From positions 1-43,411 of the forward strand of contig CAJXOU010000023.1 of assembly GCA_913057645.1 (NCBI GenBank): 43,411 nucleotides of DNA. The letters run 5' to 3'. Under the pieces are notes generated by a model. It worked only from the letters and a program-made list of their open reading frames with translations. It had not been told where the DNA came from and did no database searches. Made by a program: the position numbers and the translations under genes. Below are positions 33,139-41,025 of this stretch, piece after piece (within the stretch, counting starts at the first letter, position 1; each line of letters starts with the position of its first letter). Source of the DNA: an uncultured Rhodobiaceae bacterium. GTDB taxonomy: Bacteria > Pseudomonadota > Alphaproteobacteria > Parvibaculales > Parvibaculaceae.

Positions 33139-34848
33139 CTAGCCCTGGTTCCGTTCGCGTCCGGCCTGGCGCCACCGCGAGACAATGGCCTCGAGCCCGG
33201 CCCGGTCCAGGTTGGGTTTGCTCCATGACTGCGAGAAGCCGGCATTCAGATTGCGCGGCACGCCCCTGCTGGCGATATCGGCAAACTTGATGCGCATCGG
33301 CATGCCGACGCCCTGCCCGAGCACGATGGCCTCCCTGTCGCCAAGCAAAGGCAGGAAATCGAGCAGATCGAGAGCGCCATCATGTGTATTCGAGCGCATC
33401 ACCTGCTGGTCCCGTTCGGTCGAGAGCCGCATCGCGACAACGGTGCTGCACTGGGAAAGGATCGTCGTGTCGAGTTCGGAAGGCCGCTGGGTGACAAGTG
33501 CGAGCGAGAGGCCGTATTTCCGTCCTTCCTTGGCGATACGCGACAGCGCCTGACGTGTCGGCTCGAACCCCTGACCGGCATTGGCGGGGGCGTAGCGATG
33601 CGCTTCCTCGCAGACCAGAAGCATCGGCAATCCGCCCTTGCTCCAGACCGCAAGGTCGAAGGCGAGACGCGAGATAACCGAAATCACCACGTCGAGAATT
33701 TCCGGCGGGACCGTCGACAGATCGATCACTGTGATCGGCCGTCCATCGTTCGGTACACGGAACAAACGGCCGAGAATGTCCGTCATCGTGTCCTGTACGG
33801 TCAGGCTGCCGAACATGAAGCTGTATCGCTGATCGCTCGCCAGCGTCTCGATCCGGTTCTTCAGCCGCCGGTAGGGAAGCGTCTTCTGCGTGCGTTCGAG
33901 CTTGCCGAGCTGCTCATCGATAAATGAGAGAACATCGGAAAGACGGAAGGGCGTCGGCGCATCGACCGTCACGCCGCCAGAGTCTCCGGCGCGCCGCGCG
34001 ATCTGTCGGTTGGACGAAGCGTCGGAATAACGGCGCTTCGCGGCGATCACCGCATCGCTGAGAATTTCGATTTCCGCATCATGATAGGCATCGCCACTGG
34101 TAAGCGCCGCCGACAGTTCCTGGAAGTTGAGAAGCCAGAAAGGCAAATTCAGATTGGTCGGATCGATCAGTTCCGCCTGGTCGCCAAAGGCCGTCGGATA
34201 CTCGTTGTGTACGTCGAGCATGACGATATGCGCATGGTTATGCGCCTCGAGCACGCGCTGGAGAATGGCGGTGAGCGCACAGGACTTGCCGCACCCCGTT
34301 GTCCCCACGACGATGAAATGTTTCGCAAGCAGATCGTCGACCAGAAAACGCGCGGGCACCGCAGCATCCTGAAACAACGATCCGACTTCGATGGTCGCGA
34401 CATTCGGTTGCGTATAGACGCGCGTGAGATCGTAGCGGTCGGCGAGAAGCACCGCATCGCCGATCGTCGGCAGATGGGATACGCCACGCCGGAACGACAG
34501 CCGCCCGTCTTTCGGGTCGTCCACGACTTCTCCGGCGAGATTGATTTCGATCAGACGGATATCTTCCGCACCGCCGCCGCTTGCCGGGGTCGGTGCACTG
34601 ACTGCGGAAACAAGACCGACGACGGTCGCAAGCGGTGTCGGCACCTTGACGAGCTGCCCGATCTCGACCCGCGCTTCGTCCTGATTGCCGCTTTCCCTTT
34701 CGAGGACGGCAACCGCCTGCGAACCCGAAACGGACACGACATGAGCGATGCGCCTCGGCGGCACAGCGGGCTTGCCGCGGCGCTCTATGAAGGGCGGCGC
34801 TTCCGGTTCGTCGGCCCTCGCTCCGGGTGCGGATACGGGAGTGTTCAT
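33139..34848 (-). CDS. HerA-like ATPase (helicase HerA/DUF87 family)
   Basis: A 569-residue ATPase with an N-terminal HAS-barrel-like region (about 34-160). Walker A GTTGCGKS is at 182-189. The HerA-typical VMLDVHNEYPTAF and a Walker B with glutamate (LLVCEEAHRYAPAN) follow, then the sensor/arginine region (LVTQRPSELDTTILSQC, RLSTERDQQVM). HerA proteins are hexameric DNA translocases, best known with the nuclease NurA in archaea; no NurA or other nuclease is adjacent. Its ATG overlaps the stop of the histidine kinase gene (ATGA), so the two are co-translated. Confidence 0.87.
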   Translation of the reverse strand: MNTPVSAPGARADEPEAPPFIERRGKPAVPPRRIAHVVSVSGSQAVAVLERESGNQDEARVEIGQLVKVPTPLATVVGLVSAVSAPTPASGGGAEDIRLIEINLAGEVVDDPKDGRLSFRRGVSHLPTIGDAVLLADRYDLTRVYTQPNVATIEVGSLFQDAAVPARFLVDDLLAKHFIVVGTTGCGKSCALTAILQRVLEAHNHAHIVMLDVHNEYPTAFGDQAELIDPTNLNLPFWLLNFQELSAALTSGDAYHDAEIEILSDAVIAAKRRYSDASSNRQIARRAGDSGGVTVDAPTPFRLSDVLSFIDEQLGKLERTQKTLPYRRLKNRIETLASDQRYSFMFGSLTVQDTMTDILGRLFRVPNDGRPITVIDLSTVPPEILDVVISVISRLAFDLAVWSKGGLPMLLVCEEAHRYAPANAGQGFEPTRQALSRIAKEGRKYGLSLALVTQRPSELDTTILSQCSTVVAMRLSTERDQQVMRSNTHDGALDLLDFLPLLGDREAIVLGQGVGMPMRIKFADIASRGVPRNLNAGFSQSWSKPNLDRAGLEAIVSRWRQAGRERNQG

Positions 34849-35717
34849 GACTGCTTGTCCTGATGATTCGGAGAAGACTTGCCGGATTTGGCGGGCGGTA
34901 GCGTGAAGAAGACCGTCGTTCCCTTGCCGGGTTCGCTGTAGATCTGAAACTCACCGCCATGAAGTTTTGTCAGTGCGCCCGCGATCGGGAGCCCGAGGCC
35001 CGTTCCCTCGTGGCCACGGGCATAGCTCGATTGCACCTGACCGAACGGCGTCATCGCATGATCGATCTGTTCCTTGGACATGCCGATACCGGTATCGGCA
35101 ACGGCGATGGTCGCTCCGTTGTCGGGCGTACGCGTGGCGACGAGAACGATGCGGCCGCCTTCGGCCGTGAACTTGTGTGCGTTCGACAGAAGATTGATGA
35201 GGACCTGCTTGATACGGCGGACGTCGATCGGCACGTTCGGCAGAACGGGATCCGCCTTGATGTCGAGAACCTGCTTCTTCTCGCGAATACGCGGCTCGAT
35301 GAGCACGATGCACGCGTCGATGAGTTCCCGCAGGTCGTACATCTCGGTCGCCAGCGAAAACGTCCCGCTTTCGATTTTCGAGATGTCGAGAATGTCGGAA
35401 ATGATGTTCAGAAGGTGCCGTCCGGCGCCGGCGATATGCTCGGCATATTCACCTGTCTTGTCGGACGGCGTCCCGCTCGCGGCGATGTGCTGGATGAATT
35501 CCGAAAAGCCGATAATGGCATTGAGCGGTGTGCGGAGTTCATGGCTCATATTGGCGAGGAACTCGGATTTCGTCCGGCTCGCCATGTCGGATTCGACCTT
35601 GGCCGAGCGCAACGCAGCCTCCGACTGCCGGCGGGACAGAAGCTCGCCGAGATTCGTCGAATAGTCCGCCAGAAGGGTCTTCCGGCGGCCCCGCGCTATG
35701 GACCTGTGGCCGTGCAT
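34845..35717 (-). CDS. Sensor-less cytoplasmic histidine kinase
   Basis: A 290-residue kinase: about 45 residues of leader helix, a HisKA domain with phospho-acceptor His59 (FLANMSHELRTPLNAIIGF), and a HATPase_c domain with N-box (RIKQVLINLLSNAHKF), G1 (VADTGIGMS) and G2 (GHEGTGLGLPI). There is no membrane segment, PAS, GAF or HAMP domain, and no response regulator nearby. The frame closes at a stop upstream without an alternative start, so the short N-terminus seems genuine, though a truncated ancestor is possible. It overlaps the HerA-like gene by 4 bp. Confidence 0.87.
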   Translation of the reverse strand: MHGHRSIARGRRKTLLADYSTNLGELLSRRQSEAALRSAKVESDMASRTKSEFLANMSHELRTPLNAIIGFSEFIQHIAASGTPSDKTGEYAEHIAGAGRHLLNIISDILDISKIESGTFSLATEMYDLRELIDACIVLIEPRIREKKQVLDIKADPVLPNVPIDVRRIKQVLINLLSNAHKFTAEGGRIVLVATRTPDNGATIAVADTGIGMSKEQIDHAMTPFGQVQSSYARGHEGTGLGLPIAGALTKLHGGEFQIYSEPGKGTTVFFTLPPAKSGKSSPNHQDKQS

Positions 35718-36012
35718 GGAAGCCGTGTTGCCCCGCCTTACGATTTCCTCGCTTGAAGATAGCCGCCGCTTCCTTGCGAGCGAGTAAACGCCGCGTTAGG
35801 GAAACTTGCGGTTTTCGCAAGAATCAGTCTGCCGGAAGGCGTCTTGGCAACGCACCGAAGCCCCTTTTCCGCAGTTTCCTGCGGGATCGACCTCGAAAGC
35901 CTCACGGCGAAAAGGTTAAAGCGCTGACGGACAATCGACAGGATCGTTACCGGCGCTCATTCTTGCGCCCACAAACAAAACCCGCCCGAAGCGGGCTGGA
36001 GGGGAGGAATCC

Positions 36013-37227
36013 ATGGTGGAAACGGGAAGTCTGTTCGGGGACCTGCTGGTTCTCGACTGTGCGAGCTTTATTGCCGGGCCGGCGGCCGCGACGATCATGT
36101 CGGATTTCGGCGCCCGGGTGATCAAGATCGAACCCCCGGTGACGGGCGACAGCTACCGTCAGCTCATCCATGTCCCCGGCATGCCGCCCGCGGAACGGGA
36201 TTACTTCTGGCTTCTCGACAACCGCAACAAGGAAAGCCTGGCGCTCGACCTGAAGCACCCCGATGCCCGGCCGGTGCTCGAAGCCCTGATCGCCAGGGCC
36301 GACGTCTTCATCACGAATTTTCCGGGACCGATCCGCGAGAAGCTGAAGCTGACGCCGGATGATGTCCTGCCGCTCAACGAGCGCCTCGTCTATGCCTCGC
36401 TCACACCCTATGGCGAGGAAGGTCCGGAGAAGGACCGGACCGGCTACGACGCGACCGCCTGGTGGGCGCGATCCGGACTCATGGACAGCGTGCGCGCCAA
36501 TCCGGATACGGAGCCCGCGATATCGGTGCCGGGGATGGGCGATCATCCGACGGCCGTCGCGCTTTTTGGCGCCATTATAGCCGCGCTCTACCGCCGCGAA
36601 AAGACCGGCAAGGGCGGTGTCGTCTCGACCTCGCTTCTCGCCAACGGCCTCTGGTCGAACGGCTTGTGGATGCAGGCCGTGCTCTGCGATGCGGATTTTT
36701 CCGTGCGCCTGCGGCGCGGCCAGCGCGGCGCGCTGACCGAACTCTACAAGTGCCGCGACGGACGCTGGTTCATGCTGGCACTGTTGAACTATCTGCGCGA
36801 ATGGCCGCTGCTCGCGAACTGCGTCGGACACCCGGAATGGGTCGAAGATCCGCGCTTCGCGACGCCGGAGGCGCGGAAGGAAAATACGCCGGTCCTGTTG
36901 AAGCTGCTGGAAGAGATCTTCGTCACGGCGGACTGGCCGGAGTGGCGCGAACGCTTCACCGAGGCAGGCATCACCTTCGGACCGATCGCGCAGCCCGACG
37001 ATCACCTGGAGTGCCGGCAGGTGGCGGCGAACAACATGCTGCCCGAGATCGCCGGTGGCGAGGGGCTACGCACTGTCGACAGTCCAATCCGTCTCGCAGA
37101 CGAGCAGAAGGCCGTGCCGCGCCGCGCGCCCTCTATCGGCGAAAACACGCGTCGGATTCTTTCGGACATCGGGCTCGCGGAGGCCGATATCGAGCGGATG
37201 ATCGCGAGCGGTGCCGCCGCCGGCTGA
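36013..37227 (+). CDS. CaiB/BaiF-type CoA-transferase (family III)
   Basis: A 404-residue family III CoA-transferase. The N-terminal segment shows VLDCASFIAGPAAATIMSDFGARVIKIEPP, followed by DNRNKESLALDLKHP. The catalytic Asp lies in GMGDHPTAV (about 178-186), and the C-terminus carries RRAPSIGENTRRILSDIG. These enzymes move CoA between organic acids and often activate substrates of carnitine, bile-acid or aromatic routes. A GGAGGGGAGG site precedes the ATG. It stands alone on the plus strand and could activate a substrate for the nearby acyl-CoA genes (inferred). Confidence 0.9.
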   Translation: MVETGSLFGDLLVLDCASFIAGPAAATIMSDFGARVIKIEPPVTGDSYRQLIHVPGMPPAERDYFWLLDNRNKESLALDLKHPDARPVLEALIARADVFITNFPGPIREKLKLTPDDVLPLNERLVYASLTPYGEEGPEKDRTGYDATAWWARSGLMDSVRANPDTEPAISVPGMGDHPTAVALFGAIIAALYRREKTGKGGVVSTSLLANGLWSNGLWMQAVLCDADFSVRLRRGQRGALTELYKCRDGRWFMLALLNYLREWPLLANCVGHPEWVEDPRFATPEARKENTPVLLKLLEEIFVTADWPEWRERFTEAGITFGPIAQPDDHLECRQVAANNMLPEIAGGEGLRTVDSPIRLADEQKAVPRRAPSIGENTRRILSDIGLAEADIERMIASGAAAG

Positions 37228-37240
37228 AACCCCGAAAGGC

Positions 37241-37738
37241 TTAGCCGATCGCCATCTCGTTGGTCTCGCCGGTGCGGATGCGCACGACCTGCTCCAGCGG
37301 CTGCACGAAGATCTTGCCGTCGCCGGTCTTGCCGGTATTGGCGGCCTTTTCGATTTCGCGCACTGCCTTCTCGACCAGCTCGGCGCTCACCGCCACGTCT
37401 ATCCGGACCTTCGGAACCTCCATCACCTGGTATTCCGCGCCCCGGTAGATTTCCGAATGGCCCCGCTGACGGCCAAATCCCTGCACCTGGGTGACGGTGA
37501 TGCCCTCGATGCCGATGGCGACCAGCGCGTCGCGCAGCTCTTCATACTTATGGGGACGGATAATCGCGGTGATCATGCGCATCGGATAGCTCTTTTCATA
37601 TTCGAGACCATGAAGGACCAGGCGCCGGATGGCCTCCGACCGGGACGGCAGATCCGCCTGATCGCGGCGCCAGCGGTCCACCACATTGTTGAACTCCGCA
37701 GAGGCAACAAGCTGAATTCTCTGGTCAAGTTTTTCCAT
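37241..37738 (-). CDS. Ribbon-helix-helix / PII nitrogen regulatory fusion protein
   Basis: 165 residues in one continuous frame. Residues 1-48 are a ribbon-helix-helix DNA-binding domain (strand RIQLVAS, then the PSRSEAIRRLVLHGL helix pair). Residues 53-165 are a complete PII domain: AIIRPHKYEELRDAL, the T-loop GFGRQRGHSEIYRGAEYQV with the uridylylation-site Tyr at 103 (E. coli GlnB Tyr51), the TGKTGDGKIFV signature and RIRTGE. GAGG lies 6 nt before ATG 37738. An internal ATG at 37582 (Met53) could give a free PII. PII senses ATP/ADP and 2-oxoglutarate, so the fusion would be a nitrogen- and energy-responsive DNA binder (inferred). Confidence 0.88.
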   Translation of the reverse strand: MEKLDQRIQLVASAEFNNVVDRWRRDQADLPSRSEAIRRLVLHGLEYEKSYPMRMITAIIRPHKYEELRDALVAIGIEGITVTQVQGFGRQRGHSEIYRGAEYQVMEVPKVRIDVAVSAELVEKAVREIEKAANTGKTGDGKIFVQPLEQVVRIRTGETNEMAIG

Positions 37739-37787
37739 ATTCAGCCTCATACACACAAATTGGATTCGGCCAGCTAACCCTGAAGAA

Positions 37788-37801
37788 GCGATAAAAGTGC
37801 C
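37788..37801 (-). promoter_or_regulatory. Possible sigma-54 promoter of the RHH-PII gene
   Basis: On the minus strand GG-N10-GC with exact spacing, reading GGCACttttatcGC (37801-37788). It matches the -24 GGCAC fully but has TCGC in place of TTGC at -12. Predicted leader about 38 nt. Sigma-54 control would fit a nitrogen regulator, but the match alone is weak. Confidence 0.35.
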
Positions 37802-37809
37802 GGAAATCC

Positions 37810-37871
37810 AAGGAATTACGCTCTTTCTAGCAGCCGGGCGCCCGGCTGTCGAAAAAAATGTGTAATTCCTT
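37810..37871. repeat. Inverted repeat pair in the RHH-PII/DUF4278 intergenic region
   Basis: aaggaattac (37810-37819) and gtaattcctt (37862-37871) are perfect 10-bp arms. Their centres are 52 bp apart, close to five helical turns, so both would face the same side of DNA. Candidate operators for the RHH domain. Confidence 0.55.
37831..37848. repeat. Perfect 18-bp palindrome between the two repeat arms
   Basis: cagccgggc joined directly to gcccggctg, no spacer, lying nearly midway between the arms at 37810 and 37862. No T-tract follows on either strand in the terminator sense, so an operator or architectural site is more likely than a terminator. Confidence 0.5.
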
Positions 37872-37883
37872 CTTTTAAGCAGA

Positions 37884-37912
37884 TTGACAAACTTACACAT
37901 GTTACGCATATT
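37884..37912 (+). promoter_or_regulatory. Candidate sigma-70 promoter of the DUF4278-like gene
   Basis: Perfect TTGACA (37884-37889), a 17-bp spacer and CATATT (37907-37912), 38 bp before the start codon. It lies 12 bp from the right repeat arm. Confidence 0.65.
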
Positions 37913-37950
37913 GAGCGTCAAGACGCGAGACGCAAACACAGGAGGCAGCC

Positions 37951-38124
37951 ATGAGCGATCTGACCTACAGGGGTGTGAACCACCACGGCGACAAGAACGA
38001 CGCACAGTCCAGGGACGCGGTGCTCAACTACCGCGGCGCGAGCTATCACTCCGCCGAAAGCCACAAGGGCAAGCCCCAGGCGAATCGCACCGGCCTGCGC
38101 TACCGCGGCGTTCCGCAGCGCTAA
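37951..38124 (+). CDS. Small triple-YRG (DUF4278-like) protein
   Basis: A 57-residue basic protein: MSDLTYRGVNHHGDK, then LNYRGASYHS, and LRYRGVPQR at the C-terminus. Three copies of the hydrophobic-x-YRG motif (Y6, Y27, Y51) match the DUF4278 style, small proteins of unknown function. It has a strong GGAGG site 6 nt before the ATG, its own sigma-70-like promoter and a terminator at 38200-38231, so it is a real gene despite its size. Divergent transcription from the RHH-PII gene suggests control by it. No membrane segment or cysteine. Confidence 0.78.
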   Translation: MSDLTYRGVNHHGDKNDAQSRDAVLNYRGASYHSAESHKGKPQANRTGLRYRGVPQR

Positions 38125-38199
38125 AGGGAGACTGCCGCTACCGCCGTCTGAGGGTTGCCTTCCCCAGCGCGTAAACCGGCGAGCAGCCTCCGTTAGGCG

Positions 38200-38231
38200 A
38201 AAGGCCGTGCCCTCTCGGGGGGACGGCCTTT
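38200..38231. terminator. Terminator after the DUF4278-like gene
   Basis: aaaggccgt (38200-38208) pairs with acggccttt (38223-38231) around a loop that can pair further (ccc with ggg), followed by CTGTTTGTT. It is usable in both directions, also for the homospermidine synthase gene ending at 38257. Confidence 0.75.
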
Positions 38232-38256
38232 CTGTTTGTTCGGAACGCGAAGCCGG

Positions 38257-39678
38257 TCAGACGACGCGGAAATTCTTGAACTGCCAGGGATCCTCCTCGT
38301 CGAGGTCCTCTTCGAAGAGAAGGCCCCGGTCGAGCAGCGGCGTCCAGTCGCTATAGGCGCCGATCATATTGCCGAGATAGGGCCGCGCGATTTCGAGAAT
38401 GCGTTCGAAATTCATCTCCTCCGGCTCGGTGATCCAGCGGCCGGGATTCTCGATCGCCCAGACGACGCCGGCGAGCACGGCGACGGTCACCTGCAGGCTC
38501 GTTGCATTGTTGTGGGGCGCGCAATGGCGCGCTTCCTCGATGGTGAGCTGCGAGCCGTACCAGTAGGCGCCCTTGGCGTGGCCCATCAGCAGCACGCCAA
38601 GCTCGTCCATGCCGTCGGAAATCTCCTCCATCATCAGCCGTCTGGACTTCTGGATCTTCCAGTTCTTGCCCGCAAGTTCGTGCAGCGACAGCACCGCGAC
38701 ATGGCACGGATGATAGGCGTAATGAACGGTGGGCCGGTATTTCGCCTGGCCGCCTTCTTTCACCGTCAGATAATCGGCGAGCGAGATCGACTCGCCATGC
38801 GTGATGAGCCAGCCATGGAACGGCCCTTCATTGGGCGTCCAGCTTCTGACCCGCGTCGATGCACCCGGCCGCGCGAGATAGATCGCGCAACCCGTTCCCG
38901 AGGCGTGTGTATGGCCATCCACCGGAAAATGCTTCTCGTGCGTGCCCCAGCCGAGTTCCGCCGGCTGGCAGCCCTCGCCTACGAAACCGTCAACGGACCA
39001 GGTGTTGACGAACTCGCCGATTGCTTTGGGAATTGGCGATACCTGCGTATCGCGTTCCGCGATATGGATCGACTTGATGCCGAGACGCGACGACAGCCGG
39101 GCCCATTCCTCGCGCGTTTTCGGGGTGGCGGTCTCGACGCCCGTATCCCGCGCGATATCGAGGAGCGCCCGTTTCACGAAATGCGAAACGAGGCCGGGAT
39201 TGGCGCCATGCGTAAGGACGGCCGTCGGGCCGCCATCGTATTTCGTCCGGAGCGCCATCGCCTTTTCGCGCAGCGCATAATTCGAACGCTGTGAGGGCGA
39301 CTGCGACGTGTCGGTATATTGCCCGCTCCAGGGTTCGATACAGGTATCGAGATAGAGCGCGCCCTTGGAGCGGCAGAACTCGACAAGCGCGAGCGAAGAG
39401 ACGTCTACCGACAGATTGACAAGGAAATCGCCGTCGCCCAGCAGCGGATCGAGAACGGAGAGATAGTTCCCCTTGCGGAGCGGCATCACCGTGAACTTGA
39501 TGCCATAGGCCTCCGCTTCCGCACGGCCGGCCTCTTCTGCCGTCACGATCGAAATCTGGCCCGGCTCGATATCGAGGTGCCGCAGGAGAAGCGGCAATAC
39601 GCCCTGCCCGATACTGCCAAAGCCCACCATGACGATGCGGCCCGCAAAGCGGGTGAGTTTGCTGTCGGTCTCGGCCAT
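38257..39678 (-). CDS. hss: Homospermidine synthase
   Basis: 473 residues from ATG 39678, near the 477 of the Blastochloris viridis enzyme. The NAD-binding VGFGSIGQGVLPLLL is at about 18-32. YLDTCIEPWSGQY and THGANPGLVSHFVKRAL are family blocks. The enzyme condenses two putrescines (or putrescine and spermidine) with bound NAD+ to sym-homospermidine, the major long polyamine of many alphaproteobacteria. GAGG lies 6 nt before ATG 39678; the ATG at 39690 has no ribosome site. Monocistronic. Confidence 0.93.
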   Translation of the reverse strand: MAETDSKLTRFAGRIVMVGFGSIGQGVLPLLLRHLDIEPGQISIVTAEEAGRAEAEAYGIKFTVMPLRKGNYLSVLDPLLGDGDFLVNLSVDVSSLALVEFCRSKGALYLDTCIEPWSGQYTDTSQSPSQRSNYALREKAMALRTKYDGGPTAVLTHGANPGLVSHFVKRALLDIARDTGVETATPKTREEWARLSSRLGIKSIHIAERDTQVSPIPKAIGEFVNTWSVDGFVGEGCQPAELGWGTHEKHFPVDGHTHASGTGCAIYLARPGASTRVRSWTPNEGPFHGWLITHGESISLADYLTVKEGGQAKYRPTVHYAYHPCHVAVLSLHELAGKNWKIQKSRRLMMEEISDGMDELGVLLMGHAKGAYWYGSQLTIEEARHCAPHNNATSLQVTVAVLAGVVWAIENPGRWITEPEEMNFERILEIARPYLGNMIGAYSDWTPLLDRGLLFEEDLDEEDPWQFKNFRVV

Positions 39679-39794
39679 GGCGAACCTCATTGGCGGTCAT
39701 GGAGAACGGGCGCGGCCGCGGAACGCCGCCACACAGGTAGCAACCTAGGTGCCTCAACCGCCCAAAACCAGCAACCGGGAAAATGTCGGGGAAG

Positions 39795-39870
39795 TGGTGC
39801 CGCTTGGGTGACTCGAACACCCGACCCCCTCATTACGAATGAGGTGCTCTACCAACTGAGCTAAAGCGGC
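39795..39870 (-). tRNA. tRNA-Thr (CGT anticodon)
   Basis: On the minus strand: acceptor GCCGCTT/AAGCGGC, D-arm AGCTCAGTTGGTAGAGC, anticodon loop TTCGTAA with anticodon CGT (plus-strand 39835-39837), T-arm GGTGTTCGAGTCACC, discriminator A and encoded CCA (39795-39797). It reads ACG codons. Confidence 0.97.
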
Positions 39871-39910
39871 TCCGGGGACGGCGGAAAAACCGCCAGCCCG
39901 CAAGGGCCCT

Positions 39911-39939
39911 CAGATACCCTGCCACGCCCTCTTTGGCAA
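39911..39939 (-). promoter_or_regulatory. Candidate promoter of tRNA-Thr
   Basis: Minus strand TTGCCA (39939-39934), a 17-bp spacer and TATCTG (39916-39911). A small GGCGG/CCGCC hairpin (39880-39894) lies in the leader. Confidence 0.55.
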
Positions 39940-39975
39940 CAGGCAGAAACGCGACGGGAACTTCGAAGCGAGAGC

Positions 39976-41025
39976 CTATTCGGCGGCCTCCGGGACGGCT
40001 TCGCCGCCCTCGTTTACCGCCGCCCCGGCGGGCGGAGAGGCGGGGGACGTGGAGGACGAAGCGGCAAGCGCCGAGGCGAGGAAGTCCCTCACGGCGGCCG
40101 CACTCGCCGCCGGCACTTCCTCCATCGGAACATGACCGACATTCTCGAAGATCGCGAGTTCGGCCTGCGGAATGCGTTTCTTGAATTCATGGGCAGCCGA
40201 AACGGGGATCAGCCCGTCCTTGTCGCCCCAGATGACGAGCACCGGCACCTCGATCTCGCCAAGCCGCGCCGCGAAAGCTTCCTCGTCGCGCGACGCATAG
40301 CTCCGGAAACGCATCCGCGTCGCATCGCGATTGCCTTCGTGAAGCGACAGATCGAAATAGCGCGACACCATCTCGTCCGTCACCTTGGATTGGTCGACGA
40401 AGACCTTGCGCACGCCCTCCTCGACGACCGAGCGCGGCAGCACATAGCGCATCACGTTGCTCACGACGGGCATGCGCGCGAGACGGAAGGCAAGCGGCAC
40501 ATCCTCTTCCTTGCGCTCGACGGGAATGCCGGCCGAGTCGACCAGGATCAACGCGGAGATGCGGCCGGGATGCTCGAGCGTGTGTTGAGCCGCAACGCCG
40601 CCGCCCATCGAGTTGCCCGCAATCGCAAACCGGTCAACGTTGAGCACGTCCATCAGCTCGCCGACGAAATCCGCCATGCCCTCGCGCGTGTAGTCATCGC
40701 CCGGCACACGGCCCGTGAGTCCGTGACCCGGCAGGTCCATGCTGACGATGCGGTAGCTGTCCCCGAGTTCTGCAACCCAGGGCTCCCACGTATGAAGGGA
40801 GGCGTTCGAGCCGTGGATGAGCACAAGTACCGGGCCGTCCGGATTGCCCTCGTCGCGCATATGTGCGCTCGCCCCCGAAGGCAGCGTCACGAACTGCGAT
40901 GCGCCACCCGCATATTGGCCGACAAGCTCCTCGCGCGGCACGTCGAACTGGACGACCGAGATGACGATGACGGCAAACGCCAGCGCGATCAGCGTCAGCG
41001 TGCCGAGCAATATTCTCCTCACCAT
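39976..41025 (-). CDS. Membrane-anchored alpha/beta hydrolase
   Basis: A 349-residue alpha/beta-hydrolase with an N-terminal membrane helix (4-26). The oxyanion loop is LIHGSNASLHTW, the nucleophile elbow GNSMGGG (Ser about 143), the acid IWGDKDGLIP and the His VGHVPMEE. The C-terminal tail of about 35 residues is low-complexity (Ala, Ser, Pro, Glu). It resembles haloalkane dehalogenase/epoxide hydrolase-like esterases, but the substrate is unknown. Its start overlaps the end of hemY by 7 bp, so it is co-transcribed with hemY and the Mic60-like gene. Confidence 0.87.
   Translation of the reverse strand: MVRRILLGTLTLIALAFAVIVISVVQFDVPREELVGQYAGGASQFVTLPSGASAHMRDEGNPDGPVLVLIHGSNASLHTWEPWVAELGDSYRIVSMDLPGHGLTGRVPGDDYTREGMADFVGELMDVLNVDRFAIAGNSMGGGVAAQHTLEHPGRISALILVDSAGIPVERKEEDVPLAFRLARMPVVSNVMRYVLPRSVVEEGVRKVFVDQSKVTDEMVSRYFDLSLHEGNRDATRMRFRSYASRDEEAFAARLGEIEVPVLVIWGDKDGLIPVSAAHEFKKRIPQAELAIFENVGHVPMEEVPAASAAAVRDFLASALAASSSTSPASPPAGAAVNEGGEAVPEAAE

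Follow-up and report, generated by a model that had tools for sequence, protein, structure and literature searches.

NikR combines an RHH (ribbon-helix-helix) DNA-binding domain with a nickel-binding ACT sensor domain. Within a stretch of 43,411 nucleotides from an uncultured Rhodobiaceae bacterium, hereafter called the window, we examined a gene (37241..37738, minus strand) that shares with NikR the single-chain order of an RHH domain, here a likely one, ahead of a ferredoxin-like ligand sensor, but whose C-terminal half is a P-II domain rather than a nickel-binding ACT domain. A PDB profile search yielded no significant sequence link between the RHH profile of this protein and NikR (E 2.2). 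The PII proteins GlnB and GlnK resemble the fusion in having a complete, collinear PII domain with the T-loop tyrosine and the ligand residues, whereas they lack the 52-aa N-terminal RHH-like extension and belong to a separate clade. Another RHH-family DNA-binding protein, CdbA, binds the nucleotide messenger c-di-GMP but is concerned with nucleoid organisation, and the accessible portion of the source does not mention a PII domain (PMC7156744). In cyanobacteria, gifB/DUF4278 genes are under nitrogen-status control, as we propose here for a DUF4278-family gene, but the available part of that report describes a glutamine riboswitch and NtcA as the means (PMC6316151). Among the matches listed in open-licence PMC text, none described an RHH-PII fusion, and the terms 'ribbon-helix-helix' and 'PII protein' occurred together only in PMC7354497, in which the accessible RHH passage addresses a proline-utilisation enzyme. 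The combination of RHH and PII is new to us; its architecture resembles that of NikR, and its parts are those of PII.

The gene forms one open frame with an ATG start that encodes 165 aa and a stop, with an RHH-like domain at residues 1-50 (37589..37738, minus strand) and a PII domain at residues 53-165 (37244..37582, minus strand). As read from this open frame, the chain is not a free-standing PII protein, which agrees with the preliminary description of an RHH domain and a full PII domain in one frame, although the RHH part is likely rather than proven. There is hardly any linker between the two parts, as helix 33-50 joins PII strand 53-60 in the predicted model, and an internal start at Met53 could give free PII as well. 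Residues 1-50 are under purifying selection, with dN/dS of 0.018-0.158 in the six of seven pairs with unsaturated dS and pN/pS of 0.079 in the seventh pair, for which dS was saturated. The PII half is likewise under purifying selection.

The PII assignment is supported along the full length of the domain. Pfam P-II matched residues 53-158 with an E-value of 9.2e-29 and 100-101.1 bits (cut-off 25), covering positions 1-102 of the 102 in the model, and the best 50 rows of a Foldseek search with the whole predicted model were all PII-type entries. A profile built from 19 fusions aligned with solved PII/GlnK proteins collinearly and at a constant offset of 52, which indicates that Tyr103 corresponds to T-loop Tyr51 and bears out the earlier claim of a complete PII domain with its T-loop tyrosine. 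In five diverse fusions, residues R38, Q39, R40, Y51, K58, T83, G84, K85, G87, D88, G89, R101, and R103 (PII numbering) were invariant, and we take R38, Q39, K58, the TGK-GDG loop, R101, and R103 to be the ATP/2-oxoglutarate residues of PII. Their invariance and the purifying selection on the PII half argue against a reading that we consider unlikely, in which the RHH part binds the operator while the PII part no longer senses metabolites and instead serves as a scaffold for oligomerisation or partner binding. Such a reading would accommodate the replacement of the canonical Lys40 by Arg in all fusions aligned, the loss of PII Lys90 in three of them (L050, L051, and L052), and a T-loop base that reads xEVPK in the fusions as opposed to DFLPK or NFLPK in GlnK. 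We favor instead a PII domain that would sense ATP/ADP and 2-oxoglutarate, possibly with uridylylation at Tyr103. The latter modification is possible because the genome encodes a GlnD candidate (GlnD_UR_UTase, 164 bits, in a 937-codon frame).

The fusion is an extra PII paralogue that accompanies the ordinary PII genes of the genome, in which four P-II matches exceeded the cut-off, with scores of 115.7, 108.8, 101.1 (the fusion), and 59.6 bits. By eye, the 115.7-bit gene adjoins glnA, and the 108.8-bit gene adjoins an Amt-type transporter gene. The weakest match, at 59.6 bits, lies at G000:C1:12555-12839 (L004). In a tree of PII domains, which comprised 18 fusion and 21 canonical rows after a motif filter left out three canonical loci and for which the program warned of long branches, the fusions formed one side of a branch apart from GlnB/GlnK (support 99/97). 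Because the fusion PII domains form one clade, these sequences would fit a fusion that arose once and was subsequently spread or lost.

The N-terminal half required a broader comparison, because the fusion protein itself scored below the cut-off of Pfam RHH_1 (16.1 vs 20.5 bits, with residues 31-46 alone matched), so that the RHH assignment leans on relatives and profile comparison. Another Parvibaculum genome encodes a relative with a stretch that is 48% identical to the RHH part (E 6.6e-8); this stretch belongs to an RHH-YfbU protein, which exceeded the RHH_1 cut-off with 23.7-27.7 bits. The RHH-YfbU protein (L178:604-1314, plus strand; G019:C135) represents a second architecture, in which a larger protein carries an RHH module of the same type N-terminally, and it differs from the fusion in that the partner domain is YfbU, not PII. 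By eye, L065 resembles the RHH-YfbU protein. Profile-profile comparison using hhalign aligned a widened RHH alignment of 30 rows (A6) with 17 RHH_1 proteins across 38 columns (P 1e-4, probability 58%), whereas a control using the PII part gave P 0.076 over 10 columns; the narrower, fusion-only alignment (A3) gave a weak result (P 0.013, 15 columns, probability 3%). The predicted model of the RHH part features helices at residues 14-25 and 33-50 with high confidence, and the ribbon (residues 1-9) was absent as a strand from the monomer models. PDB searches with RHH profiles returned no significant RHH chain, and the structural match of the RHH part was weak, with 6kyt (MazEF-mt1 complex) as the best Foldseek entry (E 1.0; VIA Z 4.8, rmsd 3.7 over 49). 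Near the N-terminus, the stretch DQRIQLVAS was invariant in 12 diverse fusions, and the entire RHH part was identical in one related record. Based on the relatives, the profile comparison, and the two predicted helices, residues 1-50 likely constitute an RHH domain.

The preliminary description had raised a frameshift or sequencing error joining two genes as a concern and had proposed a domain-architecture search across genomes, which we conducted. The 164-165 aa architecture recurs in several families, and the fusion was encountered in several alphaproteobacterial groups. We therefore rejected a frameshift or assembly artefact, which is ruled out by full-length fusions in many genomes of several families and by the purifying selection on residues 1-50, as well as an assembly joint, which is ruled out by the recurrence of the fusion in two named strains, Parvibaculum indicum DSM 25305 and Henriciella mobilis M65, and among MAGs from several families. 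Within the family, 16 of 40 genomes encode the full-length fusion, and a 17th (G021) has it split between the ends of two contigs. All 17 belong to one genus, Parvibaculum, which is represented by 27 genomes, including 10 without the fusion. Fusions of 165 aa were also found outside the family in a Hyphomonadaceae MAG, Henriciella mobilis, two Neomegalonema MAGs, and a Rhodobacteraceae MAG. In the small-genome family f49, a P-II match was located in a frame of 166-174 codons in 14 of 18 genomes, with the remaining four genomes 62-83% complete, and the fusions are 164 aa in the nine loci read. At four f49 loci (L056-L059), the fusion is followed by two genes, by eye one thioredoxin-like and one LON-domain-like, and a tRNA and a cobalamin riboswitch are nearby. 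Broader sampling showed the fusion in 6 of 385 genomes of the class; in the phylum sample, an RHH match was present in 17 of 398 genomes, with a PII motif nearby in the genome of the window only.

Divergent from the fusion gene is a 57-aa gene with three YRG repeats (37951..38124, plus strand) that matched the DUF4278 family (Pfam PF14105, 44.5 bits, cut-off 25.3) at residues 4-54. A DUF4278-type frame with YRG repeats adjoins the fusion in all 16 unbroken loci of the genus and in all five loci of other named groups. In f49, such a frame is found upstream of the fusion and on the same strand in six of the nine loci read, and the flank examined contained no DUF4278-like gene at L058, L059, and L097. 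Outside f49, the DUF4278 gene is divergent from the fusion and does not form one operon with it. Five of eight neighbors from outside the close relatives of the window passed the DUF4278 cut-off, and those below it were L049 (21.9 bits), L052 (24.0 bits), and L056 (15.1 bits). DUF4278 was detected in 17 of 40 family genomes, which are exactly the fusion-bearing ones, and the other 23 have neither gene. Mapped onto an rpoB tree that covers those 14 of the 27 genus genomes with a full match, the shared fusion/DUF4278 state changes at least three times; with one presence vector for both genes, the independent pairs (3/3) restate an identical distribution and cannot reach significance alone. Of the six fusion genomes in the class sample, three gave a DUF4278 match at E 0.001, and a fourth (G382) contains a DUF4278-like frame that was recognized by eye and is too weak for the model at 15.1 bits. 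The class sample also included three genomes of family f121 with DUF4278 but without the fusion (L077, L078, and L079), and DUF4278 is thus not bound to the presence of the fusion. The other neighbors of the fusion in the window (33139-41025) include a HerA-type ATPase, a histidine kinase, a CoA-transferase III, a saccharopine-dehydrogenase-like protein, and an alpha/beta hydrolase, with no obvious nitrogen regulator among them.

A connection between DUF4278 and nitrogen is independent of the fusion, because it is known from cyanobacterial gifB and riboswitch genes. According to the available part of one report, DUF4278 covers the N-terminal part of IF17 (gifB), the cyanobacterial factor that inactivates glutamine synthetase, this part is dispensable for IF17 function, and glutamine-riboswitch aptamers in cyanobacteria are mainly located at DUF4278 genes (PMC6316151). 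A second source, in its accessible portion, identifies gifB homologues as DUF4278 homologues (PMC11288750). The 57-aa neighbor does not contain the IF17 part beyond DUF4278, which is the part needed for IF17 function. An Rfam scan of 12 loci at E 0.1 yielded nine matches, comprising four cobalamin riboswitches and five tRNAs, and no glutamine riboswitch, and we therefore rejected such a riboswitch at these 12 loci. Among 45 YRG repeats in 15 proteins, position +5, which is Y in PII, was occupied by H or Y in 24 cases and by F in another 4. DUF4278 repeats often read YRG-x-x-[Y/H/F], and the tip of the PII T-loop reads YRGAEY; T-loop mimicry by DUF4278 would be speculation from a short motif.

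The strict pairing within the family and the divergent or neighboring layout could also arise if DUF4278 were a direct effector, such that the fusion is constitutively bound to DNA and the DUF4278 protein, produced when nitrogen is in excess, binds the T-loop of PII as an anti-repressor or co-repressor in a feedback loop. There is precedent in the small cyanobacterial protein PirA, which binds PII according to the accessible text (PMC8092223). We regard a direct effector role as highly unlikely, as DUF4278 also occurs without the fusion, and we prefer to view DUF4278 as the target of repression by the fusion.

We also considered mobile elements. In a phage collection, 15 records matched the fusion, and nine of the best 10 of these 15 begin at query residue 30 or beyond, in or near the PII half. 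A near-full match (H10) reads as an Amt-PII fusion, not an RHH-PII fusion. By eye, MT835884.1 10989-11480 (L121), labelled bacteriophage, encodes an Amt transporter that ends in a PII domain and may be bacterial DNA. Plasmids contained a single weak RHH match. Of 24 viral-contig loci, 23 contain a small RHH frame of the same type (VDxWRRxQxDxPSRxEAIRRLV), and stand-alone RHH relatives are present in genomes as well, which makes it plausible from these sequences that the RHH half originated when a small RHH gene was captured by a PII gene. RHH antitoxins are common. Their commonness and the viral-contig relatives would be in keeping with a toxin-antitoxin-like or phage-derived module whose RHH protein regulates its own gene as antitoxins do, but we find this barely credible, given that the RHH part is joined to a complete PII domain and that the partner is the nitrogen-linked DUF4278 gene, which outside f49 is divergent rather than part of one operon. 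A metabolic regulator of DUF4278 remains our preferred reading.

The region between the two genes contains a candidate site for such regulation. A promoter scan returned one sigma-70-type promoter for DUF4278 (TTGACA, 17 nt, CATATT; 10/12; 37884..37912, plus strand) vs 0.3 expected, and this promoter is conserved in relatives. Comparison across the genus revealed a candidate operator, TTACACATGTTACGCAT, which is a direct repeat with a 9-bp period located in the -35/-10 spacer (37893..37909, plus strand); the pattern between -35 and -10 is TTACACAT-n-TTACnCAT. A third copy of the box (TTACACAT) is inverted (37858..37865, minus strand) and lies just upstream of a possible promoter for the fusion gene (TTCGAC, 17 nt, CTAGAA; 37825..37853, minus strand). 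The latter promoter was assigned by eye, appears in relatives as TTGGAC...CTAGAA or a close form, and was not returned by the promoter scan. The position of the inverted box suggests that the fusion may regulate its own gene. A perfect 18-bp palindrome, CAGCCGGGCGCCCGGCTG, is also present at 37831-37848, within the probable fusion promoter, and among the aligned loci is common only to the near-identical L005.

Among the 27 genus genomes, the site TTACACATSTTACNCAT with at most one mismatch occurs once per genome in 15 of the 17 that encode the fusion and in none of the 10 that do not, and the reversed control occurs in none of the 27. The site is beside the fusion in 14 of these 15 genomes, and in G021 it shares a contig with the N-terminal half. 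The two fusion genomes that lack it, G013 and G025, contain diverged copies (L018 and L008). In 16 of 17 representative loci (vs 0.03 expected), the 200 bases upstream of DUF4278 contain a core, AAsTTACACA, which was defined with the sequences already in view, whereas TTACACAT had been fixed earlier from genus loci alone. Overall, 25 of 26 loci have the core, which occurs nowhere else within those 26, and L018 is the locus without it. The orientation of the core is flipped relative to the DUF4278 gene in the five f49 loci tested, which favors a protein-binding site over a polymerase signal. The operator could in principle belong to another regulator of DUF4278, with the fusion acting mainly on proteins and its RHH part merely a dimeriser, and the RHH_1 score below the cut-off, from which DNA binding does not follow directly, leaves room for this idea. 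We give it very little credence, because the genus site occurs only where the fusion does and beside it, and because the N-terminal DQRIQLVAS stretch is invariant. We infer instead that the fusion itself binds this site. A scan of its own genome with up to three mismatches identified six sites, namely that of the window and five with three mismatches, vs eight for the reversed control, which gives no evidence for a larger regulon. Because the genome has no other site with fewer than three mismatches, the regulator looks dedicated. Of the preliminary description, the reading of the fusion as a real, complete, and probably DNA-binding PII protein stands, on the basis of its conservation across families, its ligand residues, and the candidate operator; the direct control by ATP/ADP and 2-oxoglutarate and the hexamer suggested there are putative, and the partner gene DUF4278, the operator, and the status of the fusion as an extra PII paralogue had gone unnoticed.

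Taken together, we propose with reasonable confidence that the fusion is a one-component, nitrogen- and energy-sensing repressor of DUF4278, and probably of itself too. Pairs of RHH domains would bind the 9-bp-spaced TTACACAT repeats in the -35/-10 spacer and thereby block DUF4278, and in Parvibaculum the inverted box would probably mediate self-repression. An altered ligand state of the PII domain would shift the RHH pair and release the DNA. The likeliest sign, by analogy, is that the protein would occupy the DNA when 2-oxoglutarate is high (nitrogen shortage) and leave it at nitrogen excess, because the cyanobacterial DUF4278 riboswitch raises expression at nitrogen excess. Upon release, the DUF4278 protein would be made and may restrain nitrogen assimilation. 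A bolder version, which we hold to be quite unlikely, is that a PII trimer and RHH dimers assemble, perhaps as a hexamer with three RHH dimers for three boxes, into the first PII transcription factor, wired to a DUF4278 protein whose YRG repeats mimic the T-loop tip and compete for GlnD, GlnE, or AmtB, which would constitute a self-contained alternative nitrogen circuit.

If our proposal is true, this PII sensor would act on a gene itself, without a partner protein as intermediary, and the joining of PII to a DNA-binding domain would make transcription answer to 2-oxoglutarate and ATP/ADP within a single chain. The fusion would also pose a symmetry problem, as a trimer is set against a dimer, within a small circuit that has a defined candidate site. 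For the poorly understood DUF4278 family, the locus would provide a second, independent link to nitrogen, outside of cyanobacteria.
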